DNA of 61,032 nt, taken from positions 1-61,032 of the IMG/VR virus record IMGVR_UViG_3300010391_001971, one strand, 5' to 3'. The notes below the pieces were generated by a model. The model was given only the letters and a program-made list of their open reading frames with translations, ran no database searches and was not told where the DNA came from. This DNA comes from a virus. Within the stretch, counting starts at the first letter, position 1. Every line of letters begins with the position of its first letter. This document shows, piece after piece, positions 7,420 through 18,548 of the stretch. Both the position numbers and the translations under genes were made by a program.

Positions 7420-7892
7420 CAGGCGGCCTCCGTCAGCGGCACCGGGACCTCACGGCCCAGCACCCTGCTGGCTAGCTCGCAGCCCTCCCGCCAGTCCTCG
7501 GGCTCTCCGTCCGAACTGACCCTCACACACTGCGGGCCGCCAATCAGACTCAGCGCAGCATAGACGGCCGTCACCACCACATCGTACGGCTTGTACGCCG
7601 TCTTGCAGAACAGGAAGTGACCGTCCGTGCCGAAGTGGCAATCGGCCTTCAAGTACGGTTGGTGCTCCAGCTGCGCCAGCGTGGCCGGCACGGACAGCGT
7701 CTCGTGCCCGTCCTCACCAACGCCGTTCGCCATGATGCCTTCATCCGTGTACGCGGGCCCCGGACCCTCGCCCCAGGCGTCGCCAAGCGGCACCGGGGAC
7801 GCCTCGACAATCTGGCGGGCCGCCATGACCGCCTCGGTCCATAGCTCCTGCTGGCCCGCCCTGTTCAGATACATGTAGTGCGTGTAACCCAT
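7419..7892 (-). CDS. MGYTHY-type conserved phage protein
   Basis: 157 aa; ATG 7892 in a TGATG junction. It starts MGYTHYMYLNRAG, the hallmark of a widespread phage hypothetical family that begins MGYTHYW, and later has FGTDGHFLFCKTAYKPYD and YAALSLIGG typical of that family. Function is unknown. It follows Ku in the operon. Confidence 0.8.
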   Translation of the reverse strand: MGYTHYMYLNRAGQQELWTEAVMAARQIVEASPVPLGDAWGEGPGPAYTDEGIMANGVGEDGHETLSVPATLAQLEHQPYLKADCHFGTDGHFLFCKTAYKPYDVVVTAVYAALSLIGGPQCVRVSSDGEPEDWREGCELASRVLGREVPVPLTEAA

Positions 7893-8692
7893 CACGCGGC
7901 CTCCTTCCTGGCCTTCGCAGCCTCGACGCTGGCCCGCAGCGCATCGAGCATGTCGGGCGCTGGCACCGCGGCGCGCTCCGTGAGAGTCGGCAGTGCTGTC
8001 CCGTCTTGCTTCGACGCGAGCAGCGCCTCGAGCGCGAACCGGTACTCATCGTGCTCCTCGCGCACTTCGTAGAACGGCCCGGCCAGCGCCGACACCAGCT
8101 CCTTCGCTAGGTTCCGCTCGATATCGCTGACCTGCACGTCCTCGATCAACGACTCCACCTCGCCCGACGCCGACACCTCGTCCGGCCAGTGCAGGTACAG
8201 CATCAGCAGCGCCCTACCCTCGGGCAGCAGCGCCACCAGCTGCTCCTTGCCGGACCGAGCCAGCTTCCCGATCGCCGCCTGGCCCGTCTCAGCCAGCACG
8301 TCGCGCAACAGGACGAACCCCTTCTGCGGAGCCTTCGTCCGCTCGTCCGGCGCCAGGTAGTACGACTTCGCCGCCATCACCACCGGCAACTCGGCCGCCG
8401 GCACGAACCGCGTCACCGTAATCGCCTTGCTGGACTCCAGCGGCAGACCCTCGAAGTCCTGCTCCTCCAGCAGGACGATGCCGGCGCCGGTGTCGTACCC
8501 CTTGACCAGCTCCGTCCGCTCCACCTCACGGTCGCACATCCTGCAGACCGTCGGGGCGTTGGTCCGGCTGCCGCACTCGCGGTGCACCTGGTTGAACCGG
8601 ACGTCCTTCTCTCGGACCACGCCGTAGAACCGCACCGGCACATTCACCATGCCGAAGCTGATCACGGCGCTCCCGCTACTCTTGGCCGTCAT
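7892..8692 (-). CDS. ku: Ku DNA end-binding protein
   Basis: 266 aa, normal length for bacterial Ku. It has the family start GSAVISFGMVNVPVRFYGVV, the VRFNQVHREC segment, CRMCDREVERTELVKGYD, and the central barrel stretch KSYYLAPDERTKAPQKGFVL. Bacterial Ku forms a homodimeric ring on double-strand ends and recruits LigD; no ligase gene is in the window. Mycobacteriophages Omega and Corndog also carry Ku, where it is proposed to help circularise genomes with short cohesive ends through host LigD. With Mre11, split Rad50 and the HerA-like ATPase it forms a DNA-end set. Confidence 0.95.
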   Translation of the reverse strand: MTAKSSGSAVISFGMVNVPVRFYGVVREKDVRFNQVHRECGSRTNAPTVCRMCDREVERTELVKGYDTGAGIVLLEEQDFEGLPLESSKAITVTRFVPAAELPVVMAAKSYYLAPDERTKAPQKGFVLLRDVLAETGQAAIGKLARSGKEQLVALLPEGRALLMLYLHWPDEVSASGEVESLIEDVQVSDIERNLAKELVSALAGPFYEVREEHDEYRFALEALLASKQDGTALPTLTERAAVPAPDMLDALRASVEAAKARKEAA

Positions 8693-13235: not shown

Positions 13236-13487
13236 CTACGGGCTCCGACCGCCGTACAGGGTCCGCCCATGATGAGGGACGCCGACGGCCCACTGCCAGA
13301 CACGTGCCAACAGACTCTTGCCTCGGCGGGTGCCATCGGGCCACTCGCTCCCATCGCAGACCGAACAGTGAGGCGGGAAACAGCGCCCCTTCTTGTGCCC
13401 CTGATACATCATCCGAACCGTGCGGCGCTCCTGCACGAACATGTTCGCCAGCACGGCGATCAGCGCTACGACCGTTATCTTATACAT
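13236..13487 (-). CDS. Small membrane-anchored Cys protein, 83 aa
   Basis: ATG 13487 overlaps the end of the HerA-like gene by 8 nt (ATGTATAA). Residues 3-20 (KITVVALIAVLANMFVQE) form a short membrane helix or signal anchor, followed by a basic loop and CFPPHCSVC. Function unknown; the C-terminal part is low in recognisable features. Confidence 0.6.
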   Translation of the reverse strand: MYKITVVALIAVLANMFVQERRTVRMMYQGHKKGRCFPPHCSVCDGSEWPDGTRRGKSLLARVWQWAVGVPHHGRTLYGGRSP

Positions 13488-15225
13488 GGCTGGGCAACAG
13501 AACCGATGCGGCCGTGATCTGGCCGTCCTGCTCCTCGATCAGCGCGTTCCGTCGCAGGACACTCAAGTACCCTGCGAACGTGCCGCCGCTAGCCGCGAAG
13601 CCGGCCGCCTCACCCAGCTCTTCGCGGCTGATCGGGCCGCGCTCCAGCGCCACCTCGAGCATCCGGTAGCAGCCGGCCTTCAGATTCTTCCGCCACATCG
13701 CCATGACGTCCTCATGCGACGCCGGTGCCGCCGGGACCGTGCCAGCAGCAGCGAGACCGGCCTCGGTGATCGCCACCGCCGCGCCCGCCGTCGAGATGAA
13801 CCCGCGGACCTTCAGCGCGGACAGGTACCCGGAGAACGTTCCACCACGAGGCGCGAAACCCGTCAGCAGGCCCAGCTGCGAGCGAGTCCAGACCGTCGGA
13901 TGGCGGCTGGCCAGCTCCTCCAGCATCCTCCGGGCCCCAGCCTTCAGTGGCGGCGTGTCGGTCAAGACGATGGGCTCACTGATCGGCGCGGCGGGCCTCG
14001 AACCCGCGACCTCCGGCTTATAAGGCCGACGCTCTGCCTTGGCTGAGCCACGCGCCGTCTTGCCATTCTCCAGGCGCTCGATGCCAGCCTGAAGCCTGTC
14101 AACAACGTTGCGGGCGCTGCCGATGAACTCGCGCACCTCCGTCACCAGCTGGCGCAAGCCATCTTCCGCCACGCGGGCCTTATCCTTCGCCAGGGCCAGC
14201 TCCCGACGCACCTCATCGAACTGGACGATGGCCACAGTCGCGACATTCGGGCGTCCGGCCTGTCTCAGCTCAACATTCAACCGCGAGATCTCCCGCCTCA
14301 GCTCCCTCGGGTCGTTCGCCTTCGCCTGCTCAATCACGCTGGCCAGCTTCTTCTCCAGCGCCTTCAGCTCCACCGGAGCCAACCGCTTCGGCTGGGCCAT
14401 CCGCTGACCCACCTTCGGCGTGGCCGAGCTGTCGAACGTCCGCTTCTCGCGGATCGCCACCAACTGGAACACATCGAGCCAGCCGGGGCTCCAGAACCAG
14501 GCGGAGCCGATCGGCAGCGAAGCCAGTGACGACATCAGCTGCTGGCGGCGCTCAGGCTCGCCGTGCACCTTGACCCAGGCGTCCACGGCCTCTCGGTCCG
14601 ACGGTGCCAGCGTCCGCATCGCCACGAGCACCTCAGCCATATTGAGCACGTCCTTGTTCAGCACGGCAGACCGCTGCGTGACCAGCGTCACGCCCAGGCC
14701 ACGCGCCCGGCCACGCCGCACGACGTCCTCGATCGCGCCCAGCATCCGCTCTTGGCCCTTCATCGGCCTCTGCGGAGCGAACGAATCGGCCTCGTCCAGC
14801 ATCACGTGCAGCGGGTCGCGGTTGCGCTGGTACAGCCGCTCCGCGAAGTCCGTCACGAAGCGGCGCTGCTCTCCCTTCCGGAACAGGGACAGATCAATGA
14901 CGCACGAGATCACCTGGTCGACGATCAGGTCCGCCACGATCTCGCCGGCGCCCTCCGCCAGAGGCAGATCACCGTGCTCGCCGCCCAGCACCATAACAGG
15001 CAGCCCTTCCCGCTTGCCGTCAGCGCTGGCCCGCAGTCCCCACCAGACGCCCAGCGGATCCAGCACTACGACGCGCAGCCCAGCCGCCACCATCTCCTCG
15101 ACCATCACGCCAGCCGTGTACGTCTTGCCGACCCCACGCTTCGCCAGGATCGCGAACGTCTGCGTCACGGAGTCCAGCGGCAGGCTGAAGCCGTCCTTGC
15201 CGATGACCAGCCGCTTCTCGGTCAT
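13480..15225 (-). CDS. HerA/DUF87-like ATPase with two C-terminal winged-helix repeats
   Basis: 581 aa; ATG 15225 overlaps the upstream stop (ATGA). Walker A AKRGVGKTYT (residues 28-37) and Walker B HVMLDEADSF (140-149), with LVTQRSAVLNKDVL after it, fit the HerA/VirB4-like FtsK-superfamily ATPases that move along DNA and, in archaea, work with Mre11-Rad50 and NurA. A coiled coil follows (about 290-385). The C-terminus carries two homologous winged-helix units marked GGTFSGYLSALKVRGFI and GGTFAGYLSVLRRNALI, an internal duplication. Between the coil and these units, codons 390-415 coincide with a complete tRNA gene on the same strand, with no stop codon. Either the frame is interrupted by a functional tRNA or a fusion formed there. 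Confidence 0.8.
   Translation of the reverse strand: MTEKRLVIGKDGFSLPLDSVTQTFAILAKRGVGKTYTAGVMVEEMVAAGLRVVVLDPLGVWWGLRASADGKREGLPVMVLGGEHGDLPLAEGAGEIVADLIVDQVISCVIDLSLFRKGEQRRFVTDFAERLYQRNRDPLHVMLDEADSFAPQRPMKGQERMLGAIEDVVRRGRARGLGVTLVTQRSAVLNKDVLNMAEVLVAMRTLAPSDREAVDAWVKVHGEPERRQQLMSSLASLPIGSAWFWSPGWLDVFQLVAIREKRTFDSSATPKVGQRMAQPKRLAPVELKALEKKLASVIEQAKANDPRELRREISRLNVELRQAGRPNVATVAIVQFDEVRRELALAKDKARVAEDGLRQLVTEVREFIGSARNVVDRLQAGIERLENGKTARGSAKAERRPYKPEVAGSRPAAPISEPIVLTDTPPLKAGARRMLEELASRHPTVWTRSQLGLLTGFAPRGGTFSGYLSALKVRGFISTAGAAVAITEAGLAAAGTVPAAPASHEDVMAMWRKNLKAGCYRMLEVALERGPISREELGEAAGFAASGGTFAGYLSVLRRNALIEEQDGQITAASVLLPSHV
13983..14057 (-). tRNA. tRNA-Ile (anticodon UAU), nested in the HerA-like gene
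   Basis: The minus strand folds as a full cloverleaf: acceptor CGGCGCG/CGCGCCG (7 bp, all paired), D stem GCTC/GAGC, anticodon stem TCGGC/GCCGG with loop CTTATAA (anticodon TAT, reads AUA), five-base variable loop AGGTC, T stem GCGGG/CCCGC with loop TTCGAGG, discriminator A. CCA is not encoded. AUA is rare in high-GC hosts but is used by several small genes here, so a phage-supplied decoder makes sense. Confidence 0.88.
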
Positions 15226-15404
15226 GCGGGCGGCTCGTGACCCTCGAAGCCGCGCTGGTTCTTGGCTAGCCAAGCAGTCGCGCACCCCCAGCTACACAGC
15301 TCCGCTCGCGGAGAATGATAACCATGCGTCTGTATCACGATCCAGCTCGCCGGCCTCGGGCCTTCCACGAGCTTCGCACATTCGTCGCAGATCGATCCCG
15401 TCAT
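15222..15404 (-). CDS. Zinc-finger protein, 60 aa
   Basis: ATG 15404 six bases after AGGAGG. CDEC at residues 6-9 and CSWGC around residue 38 give a four-Cys site; the segment ASWIVIQTHGYHSPRAELCS between them is strand-like. Small phage proteins with this CDEC...CSWxC layout are common and unassigned. Confidence 0.78.
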   Translation of the reverse strand: MTGSICDECAKLVEGPRPASWIVIQTHGYHSPRAELCSWGCATAWLAKNQRGFEGHEPPA

Positions 15405-15414
15405 GGACAACCTC

Positions 15415-16794: not shown

Positions 16795-16919
16795 AACCAG
16801 CGGACGAGCAGCAACACTAACAGCGGCAGGAGACCCAGTGTGACATAGATTACAAAGAGTACCCGCCCCGACAGAACGATACCATCTCGCCGCATTCTAA
16901 CCGGAAATCGCAGCCTCAC
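16791..16919 (-). CDS. Membrane micropeptide, 42 aa
   Basis: GTG 16919 in a TAGTG junction with the recombination-directionality-factor stop; an internal ATG at 16895 is the alternative. A basic start (RLRFPVRMRRDG) precedes a long hydrophobic helix (VLFVIYVTLGLLPLLVLLLV). Probably single-pass. Function unknown. Confidence 0.6.
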   Translation of the reverse strand: MRLRFPVRMRRDGIVLSGRVLFVIYVTLGLLPLLVLLLVRWL

Positions 16920-18094
16920 TAGCGTCCCGCCTGCGTCGACGCAGCCACGTCCCGCACCAGCTCGTACGCCTGCTGGAACGGCACGGCGATCTCCTCCGGC
17001 TTGGCCACCTTCAGGACCTTCAGCACCGCCGCCTTGTCGTACCCGAACTCCGCGCGGCAGCGGTTCAGCAGATCGCCCAGGGTGAGCACCAGGCCGCTCG
17101 GTGGGGGAGTATATTCGGCAGGCCCGTCGGGGGCCTGGTCATCCACTGTGGTGGACGTAACGGGTTTTGTATTGGAATTAACCGCATCGCCCGTCATCTC
17201 CGCCACCGCGGCGACGTACACGCCGGCGTCAGTATCATCCGGCGGCTCCTCCTCATCGACCGGCTCCGGCGGCGGCAGGAGCGCGTGCTCCGGCAGCTTC
17301 GATGCTGCCAGGACCATCTGCTCCAGCGTCATGTCGGGCAGCCGGAGATCCATCACCTGCACCGTCGTGGTCTTCACGCTGCCGCCGTGCTCAACCCCGA
17401 CGGCCGCACCGCTGCCGGCCTGGCTGGGCGTGACCTGTTTCGGCACCAGGCTCAGCTTGAGCGGTATCCCGCGGACCCGCCCGCCCGTCACCGCCTTCCC
17501 CATCGCGATGCAGCTCAACACGCTCTGAATACTGTTCCAGGAGCCCGTGTCGATCTGCCAGACACCGAAGCCGCGAACACGCGGCAGCACGAACTGGAGG
17601 TTCTGCACGGTGCGACACTGAGGCTTCTCGCCTTGCATCGGGCAGCGGTCCGCCAGGCAGGGGATCGTCTGGTAGACCCACGATTGGCTGCTCTTGTTGG
17701 CCCATGTGCCGGCCCGAGGATACGGCCGCTCATCCTCATCCGGTCGCTGGGGACGGGGTCCGTCCTGCGCCGGGTCCCACTTCGCCATAGCGGTCTCACC
17801 ATCGCCCCTGCAGGTCAGGCCCCAGGAGCCCGTGTACATTTTCAGGTTCACGTCGGCGAACAGCGAGTCGTCGTCCACCGGGAACATGACGTCCAGCTCA
17901 CGCGGCTTCTCGCCATAGATCTCGCGGAACGCCTGCACAGCGTCCAGAGACGTGCTGGGCTCCTCCTTCACAACGAAGTATTCCGTCTGCTGCGGGTACT
18001 CGATGGTGGTGCCGGGCTTCGTCACCCTCACGCCGAGGTGAATCTTGCCAACGCGGGGCAGACGCCGACGGTCAGTAATCCCTTTGACGGGCAT
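16919..18094 (-). CDS. Recombination directionality factor-like (phiC31 gp3-type)
   Basis: 391 aa, ATG 18094 five bases after AAGGAGG. It resembles the gp3-type recombination directionality factor family of actinophages: GKIHLGVRVT, TEYFVVKEE, CPMQGEKPQC in the middle and VRGFGVWQIDTGSWNSIQSV. These proteins switch serine integrases from integration to excision, implying that the phage can lysogenise, although no integrase is in the window. The C-terminal 110 residues are acidic, Pro/Thr-rich and end in a small helical domain. It has its own promoter at 18128-18156. Confidence 0.75.
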   Translation of the reverse strand: MPVKGITDRRRLPRVGKIHLGVRVTKPGTTIEYPQQTEYFVVKEEPSTSLDAVQAFREIYGEKPRELDVMFPVDDDSLFADVNLKMYTGSWGLTCRGDGETAMAKWDPAQDGPRPQRPDEDERPYPRAGTWANKSSQSWVYQTIPCLADRCPMQGEKPQCRTVQNLQFVLPRVRGFGVWQIDTGSWNSIQSVLSCIAMGKAVTGGRVRGIPLKLSLVPKQVTPSQAGSGAAVGVEHGGSVKTTTVQVMDLRLPDMTLEQMVLAASKLPEHALLPPPEPVDEEEPPDDTDAGVYVAAVAEMTGDAVNSNTKPVTSTTVDDQAPDGPAEYTPPPSGLVLTLGDLLNRCRAEFGYDKAAVLKVLKVAKPEEIAVPFQQAYELVRDVAASTQAGR

Positions 18095-18127
18095 CGGCTC
18101 CTCCTTGCTGAGCATCCACTGCGTTGG

Positions 18128-18156
18128 ACGGTAGCACGCCAACGACGGGCTGTCAA
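18128..18156 (-). promoter_or_regulatory. Promoter with operator-like inverted repeat
   Basis: Minus strand TTGACA (18151-18156), 17-nt spacer ending CGTTGGCGTGC, TACCGT (18128-18133). CGTTGG in the spacer and CCAACG just after the -10 form an inverted repeat with an 11-nt gap bracketing the -10. A 13/16 copy of the genome palindrome lies at 18114-18129. Leader of about 30 nt with AAGGAGG. Confidence 0.7.
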
Positions 18157-18548
18157 TAGGGCGGAGCGCCGGTTCTCCAGGTCCGCGCGAGCGCCTTCGG
18201 ACCCACCGGGAGCCGGCGCAACTTCTCGCGGAGCACGAACGCCAGCTCGCCTTCAAGTGCTTGCTTCACCACCGTTGGCCTCAGCTCCGCATGCACCCCG
18301 ACGTGCTGGCCTATCGCGACCAGCTCCTCGATGGGCAGCTCACCGCCCTCAACGTGCGCTAGCCAGCGGCGCAGCGTCCGGGCGTAGCGGAAGGCGGGGC
18401 GACGGCCACGGGCCGGGCAGCTGCCTCCGTGGGCTGTCCCGTCCGGGTCTACGAACCGGTCACCGGCCCGGAGCACGGTCTCAGCGCGAACGGCCTGCTC
18501 GGGAGCCAGTCGGACCATCTGATTACAAGCGGGGCAACGTCGCCACAT
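18153..18548 (-). CDS. Zinc-finger hypothetical protein, 131 aa
   Basis: ATG 18548, preceded by GGCGGCGAG. CPACNQMVRLAPEQ at the start and SCPARG near residue 43 supply Cys ligands; the remainder is helical and basic. Its TGA is part of the TTGACA of the next promoter. No family recognised. Confidence 0.7.
   Translation of the reverse strand: MWRRCPACNQMVRLAPEQAVRAETVLRAGDRFVDPDGTAHGGSCPARGRRPAFRYARTLRRWLAHVEGGELPIEELVAIGQHVGVHAELRPTVVKQALEGELAFVLREKLRRLPVGPKALARTWRTGAPPY

Follow-up and report, generated by a model that had tools for sequence, protein, structure and literature searches.

In mycobacteriophage Fionnbharth, a functional transfer RNA (tRNA) gene, tRNA-Lys(TTT), overlaps the 3' end of gene 37 from the opposite strand under its own promoter, and the overlap adds 18 residues to the gene 37 protein relative to a phage without the tRNA (PMC10865867). 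As for isoleucine decoding, the UAU anticodon is, according to a review, missing from the Ile-Met box of prokaryotes (PMC8007984), and prokaryotic AUA codons are read by a modified CAU tRNA (PMC11938285). We describe here a viral locus in which a tRNA-Ile(UAU) gene lies in frame within a gene for a HerA-like ATPase (termed herA below). The window, that is, the whole stretch of DNA analysed, comprises the 61,032 nucleotides (nt) of IMG/VR record IMGVR_UViG_3300010391_001971, and all coordinates without a locus name refer to it. Judged from its sequence, a single stretch of this DNA is predicted to encode both an intact tRNA and an open protein frame.

Only one tRNA is found in the whole record by ARAGORN, a tRNA-Ile with anticodon TAT at 13983-14057 on the minus strand, which is also the coding strand of herA. 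Rfam model RF00005 matches the same interval at full length (model positions 1-71 of 71) with 62 bits and an E-value of 4.8e-11, and the complete cloverleaf that had been reported there by a first-pass annotation is thereby recovered with two programs. The gathering score of the model is 29 bits; the tRNA stands above this curated cut-off and by score is not a pseudogene; a pseudogene score was one of two outcomes that the first-pass annotation had named as telling against its own proposal. All 21 of the 21 stem pairs are canonical, one being G-U, and inspection of the sequence shows the usual tertiary bases to be in place (U8, A14, G15-C48, G18G19, U33, A37, U54-A58, U55C56 and discriminator A73). 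The UAU anticodon, situated at tRNA nt 36-38 (14020-14022, minus strand), together with A37 and A73 as read from the sequence, marks the molecule as an AUA-reading tRNA-Ile.

The host gene (13480-15225, minus strand) has 581 codons, of which the tRNA occupies codons 390-415, from nt 1169 to nt 1243 of the gene, and the open reading frame (ORF) continues through it without a stop, in agreement with the earlier description. The tRNA is 75 nt long, a multiple of three, and the reading frame is therefore preserved; the encoded peptide, (KT)ARGSAKAERRPYKPEVAGSRPAAP, is as first written. Of the three sense frames of the tRNA, two are open, the herA frame among them, and the third is interrupted by a stop codon within the anticodon loop. 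Stop-free sense frames are common in tRNAs (279 of 404 distinct tRNAs, and 14 of 15 when the guanine-plus-cytosine (GC) content exceeds 65%), and the surprise thus lies in the position inside a conserved gene rather than in the open frame itself. The survey covered 944 distinct tRNA genes from 377 loci, mostly viral and chosen for HerA or tRNA patterns, and is a sample and not a census; within it the tRNA-Ile(UAU) of the window is the sole case, 1 of 944, that lies deep inside a long ORF on its own strand, preceded by 409 codons (when the ORF is taken from its longest-ORF start, 15285) and followed by 166. Every other overlap between a tRNA and an ORF in the survey is antisense, touches the end of the ORF, or involves a shorter ORF that appears fortuitous. 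At L258:1102-1645, open frames of roughly 140-190 codons run across a tRNA gene cluster on the same strand, probably by chance. The literature that was searched contains no same-strand nested phage tRNA.

The protein encoded by herA is HerA-like in its ATPase core only and is not HerA proper, so the first-pass label stands for the core and fails for the protein as a whole. Pfam assigns DUF87 (E-value 7e-9; 36.5 bits, cut-off 23.2) and HerA_C (25.4 bits against 22). The core, residues 1-258 (14452-15225, minus strand; Pfam, AlphaFold and Foldseek), carries the Walker A motif AKRGVGKT and the Walker B motif VMLDEAD, and these motifs, the DUF87/HerA core and the fold matches place it among HerA/FtsK-like P-loop ATPases. 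The top Foldseek matches are HerA structures (9x1m and 4d2i; Thermococcus and Sulfolobus) and HerA of SIR2-HerA defence complexes. The NCBIfam equivalog cut-off for HerA is missed by far, with 59 bits against 970, and the N-terminal HAS barrel domain is absent from the AlphaFold model, in which the P-loop at residues 28-35 is preceded by only two short strands. The remainder of the model consists of a long helical (coiled-coil) region at residues 287-391 (14053-14367), a disordered linker at residues 388-423 (13957-14064) and two winged-helix repeats at residues 429-494 (13744-13941) and 504-572 (13510-13716), all encoded on the minus strand; the repeats are also supported by alignment. The tRNA therefore lies between the ATPase-plus-coil part and the two winged-helix repeats, as had been proposed. 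The predicted local distance difference test (pLDDT) score falls below 50 in just two segments, residues 326-333 and 388-423, and the latter, mostly tRNA sequence, holds the tRNA-encoded residues 390-415. Within a single HerA-like protein, both repeats carry the same recognition-helix motif, for example STRDRYLxYL or TSGGYFNNL, and these shared motifs resemble swappable DNA target-recognition units.

Relatives of herA are found in many virus contigs, in bacterial genomes, and on plasmids of Mycolicibacterium, Clavibacter and haloarchaea. Of 129 distinct relatives, none contains a tRNA in its ORF (ARAGORN at the default and the first relaxed pseudogene setting; looser settings give noise). Nor are the linker residues of the window shared by any relative; homologues with these residues but no tRNA structure were the other outcome named at first pass as adverse. 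The frame of the window is open and homologous to relatives on both sides of the tRNA, and the tRNA-encoded residues align to a hypervariable linker rich in Pro, Ala, Arg and Ser. From the last tryptophan of the ATPase (W249) to the first winged helix there are 184 residues in the window, as compared with a median of 185 and a range of 164-244 in 56 relatives. This ordinary length suggests that the tRNA was either substituted for linker sequence or inserted into a linker of unusual shortness; the latter alternative would be an insertion into a stretch of 159 residues, slightly under the observed minimum of 164. The addition of 25 extra residues onto a normal linker was considered and rejected, as the total length equals the median. 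The hypervariable linkers of homologues, the typical length, and the predicted disorder of residues 388-423 lend good support to the earlier proposal of a tRNA sequence tolerated by the protein as a linker.

Comparison of the two halves of the protein indicates that winged-helix tails have been exchanged as modules within the coil/linker zone among the relatives. Identity in the ATPase correlates poorly with identity in the tail (r = 0.29, 123 proteins). The ATPases of L031 and L040 are 94% identical while their tails are about 30% identical, and L017 and L222 present the opposite situation, with 47% in the ATPase and 70% in the tail. Tail data reject the group L031-L040-L043-L045-L055, which is alike in the ATPase (approximately unbiased (AU) test, p 2.9e-8), as well as the group of the window with L143, L004 and L153 (p 6e-6), whereas ATPase data reject neither group (p about 0.27); the tested groups were picked after the identities had been viewed, so the p-values are optimistic, and the effect is large. 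The tail-based group is compatible with the ATPase data (p 0.24), and the swap may have occurred either in the window or in the L004/L143/L153 lineage. A further example of the ATPase and the tandem winged-helix tail swapped as modules is the pair L230 and L239. Exchange of tails in this zone would place the tRNA at or near a natural recombination joint, and it is reasonable to suppose that recombination brought the tRNA to this zone. As worded, the earlier suggestion of a fusion of two genes at a tRNA site is incorrect, because the ATPase and the winged-helix tail already form a single ORF in relatives. We also note that, of the six herA genes that share the tail group with the window, two have tRNA genes downstream, at 4 and 310 nt (L002:6699-6920 and L133:5972-6047). 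Such herA-adjacent tRNAs are near-absent outside this group (Fisher p 0.006), a post hoc comparison that is suggestive only.

The origin of the tRNA itself may be sought among phages. About 70 tRNA-Ile(UAU) genes were found in viral contigs, and the frequency of this isotype there, together with its general absence from prokaryotes, suggests the phage pool as the source. The closest tRNA in the fetched loci is the viral tRNA-Ile(UAU) of L096, with 83% identity. Viral tRNA-Ile(UAU) genes are frequent among loci L058-L132, and phages may thereby read AUA without lysidine synthetase.

An upstream ORF (15222-15410, minus strand) has a stop that overlaps the herA start codon (ATGA), and a downstream ORF (13236-13487, minus strand) has a start that overlaps the herA end by 8 nt; the overlaps at both ends suggest that the transcript is probably polycistronic. 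Elsewhere on the minus strand, a Ku-like DNA end-binding protein gene lies at 7892-8692 (phrog_4873, Pfam Ku), and a Gp3-like gene, resembling recombination directionality factors, lies at 16919-18256. No DNA-level relatives were found among phages.

We consider it somewhat probable that a phage-type tRNA-Ile(UAU) landed in frame in a tolerant linker and that each transcript is now used in one of two ways, as message for herA or as a precursor of the tRNA. Illegitimate recombination in the coil/linker zone, the site of tail exchange in this family, would probably have brought in the tRNA gene. A translating ribosome would unfold the cloverleaf and read it as a flexible tether rich in Pro, Arg and Ala, and on transcripts free of ribosomes in this region the cloverleaf could fold. 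Ribonuclease P (RNase P), 3' trimming and CCA addition would then release an AUA-reading tRNA and leave a broken message. Processing of the tRNA out of the message, a possibility raised in the first-pass annotation, is plausible, as the tRNA is structurally intact and no separate promoter-like site for it was found in the region. On this reading we infer that mature tRNA is made, that full-length protein is made, and that the tRNA is useful. A bolder version seems doubtful, in which the tRNA gene is a genuine linker module at the recombination joint, translation and RNase P compete for a bifunctional precursor, and ribosome traffic sets the ratio of HerA-like ATPase to tRNA.

Several observations weigh against a working tRNA that shares its transcript with herA. 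The codon that it would read is rare in this phage, as the first-pass annotation had it: AUA accounts for 31 of 12,011 codons in 25 likely genes, or 6.8% of Ile codons, and is not used in herA. A near relative carrying the tRNA was not found, and the exact tRNA core is unmatched in the viral and genome collections. CCA is not encoded with the tRNA, the acceptor pair is C1-G72, which is uncommon in tRNA-Ile, and cutting by RNase P would destroy the herA message. The isolated cloverleaf also differs from the minimum-energy fold; unmodified GC-rich tRNAs often have a minimum-energy fold other than the cloverleaf. On the favourable side, forcing the tRNA fold takes 9.0 kcal/mol in a 275-nt piece of the message and 7.6 kcal/mol for the tRNA alone, which suggests that the message context neither blocks nor favours the cloverleaf and hardly opposes it.

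Among the rivals, the strongest is a passenger of recent arrival and without function: a tRNA gene copied into the linker by recombination and tolerated there, which yields no useful tRNA, so that the protein alone is of consequence, and which retains its cloverleaf because the event is young. The absence of the tRNA from every homologue, linkers that accept nearly any sequence, the usual occurrence of a stop-free sense frame in tRNAs and the lack of a promoter-like site of its own agree with such a passenger. However, all stem pairs and the tertiary bases are intact while the best match in the fetched loci is only 83% identical, so that no recent donor is visible, and we regard the passenger as possible but not probable. 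The position of the tRNA, exactly between two modules on the same strand and in what the gene overlaps suggest to be one transcript, would also suit a functional cut point, where RNase P together with 3' processing divides the transcript so that the ATPase and winged-helix parts are made separately or herA is down-regulated. Yet no ribosome-binding site and start at a plausible spacing were seen by eye 3' of the tRNA, the frame is kept open with an ordinary linker length, and both parts belong to one chain in relatives; a cut point is therefore improbable.

An attachment site, or part of a tRNA-dependent lysogeny, draws on the Gp3-like gene and on the precedent that phages use tRNA genes as bacterial attachment sites (attB) and that some encode a tRNA replacing one lost (PMC10865867). 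Against it, no tyrosine or serine recombinase domain was detected in the record, which may be a fragment, and there is no PF00589 match; a UAU tRNA is not a normal bacterial isotype that needs replacement, and a phage attachment site (attP) at the tRNA would split herA upon integration. Since no integrase was found, tRNA-dependent lysogeny is unsupported and an attachment site is very unlikely. The metagenomic nature of the record brings in an assembly artefact, namely the false joining of two contigs at a repeated tRNA, but frame and domain order are kept across both joins, the linker has a normal length and no second copy of the tRNA occurs in the record, and this explanation has the slightest chance of those weighed here.

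The favoured reading, a tRNA in a tolerant linker on a shared transcript, concerns one instance only, for which no close relatives were found. Should both products arise, the same message would face two fates, translation or cleavage into tRNA, in a direct conflict between ribosome and RNase P, and disordered linkers at recombination joints are suggested as a way by which phage genes absorb foreign functional RNA. The protein shares the P-loop ATPase core with HerA/FtsK-type DNA translocases, and unlike HerA it has Walker A near residue 28, no HAS barrel, and a C-terminal coiled coil with two winged helices. The tRNA shares the anticodon and the loop CUUAUAA with other phage tRNA-Ile(UAU) genes, none of which lies deep in a long same-strand protein ORF in the survey. 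Overlap of tRNA and protein genes is already known, and a complete tRNA lying in frame and on the coding strand within a conserved protein was found neither elsewhere among the 944 tRNAs nor in the searched papers. As in Fionnbharth, where the tRNA is known to be functional, a phage tRNA gene overlaps a protein gene, is absent from sister phages and contributes extra residues to the protein. In contrast to Fionnbharth, the tRNA of the window is on the same strand, in frame and interior, so that one transcript must serve both.
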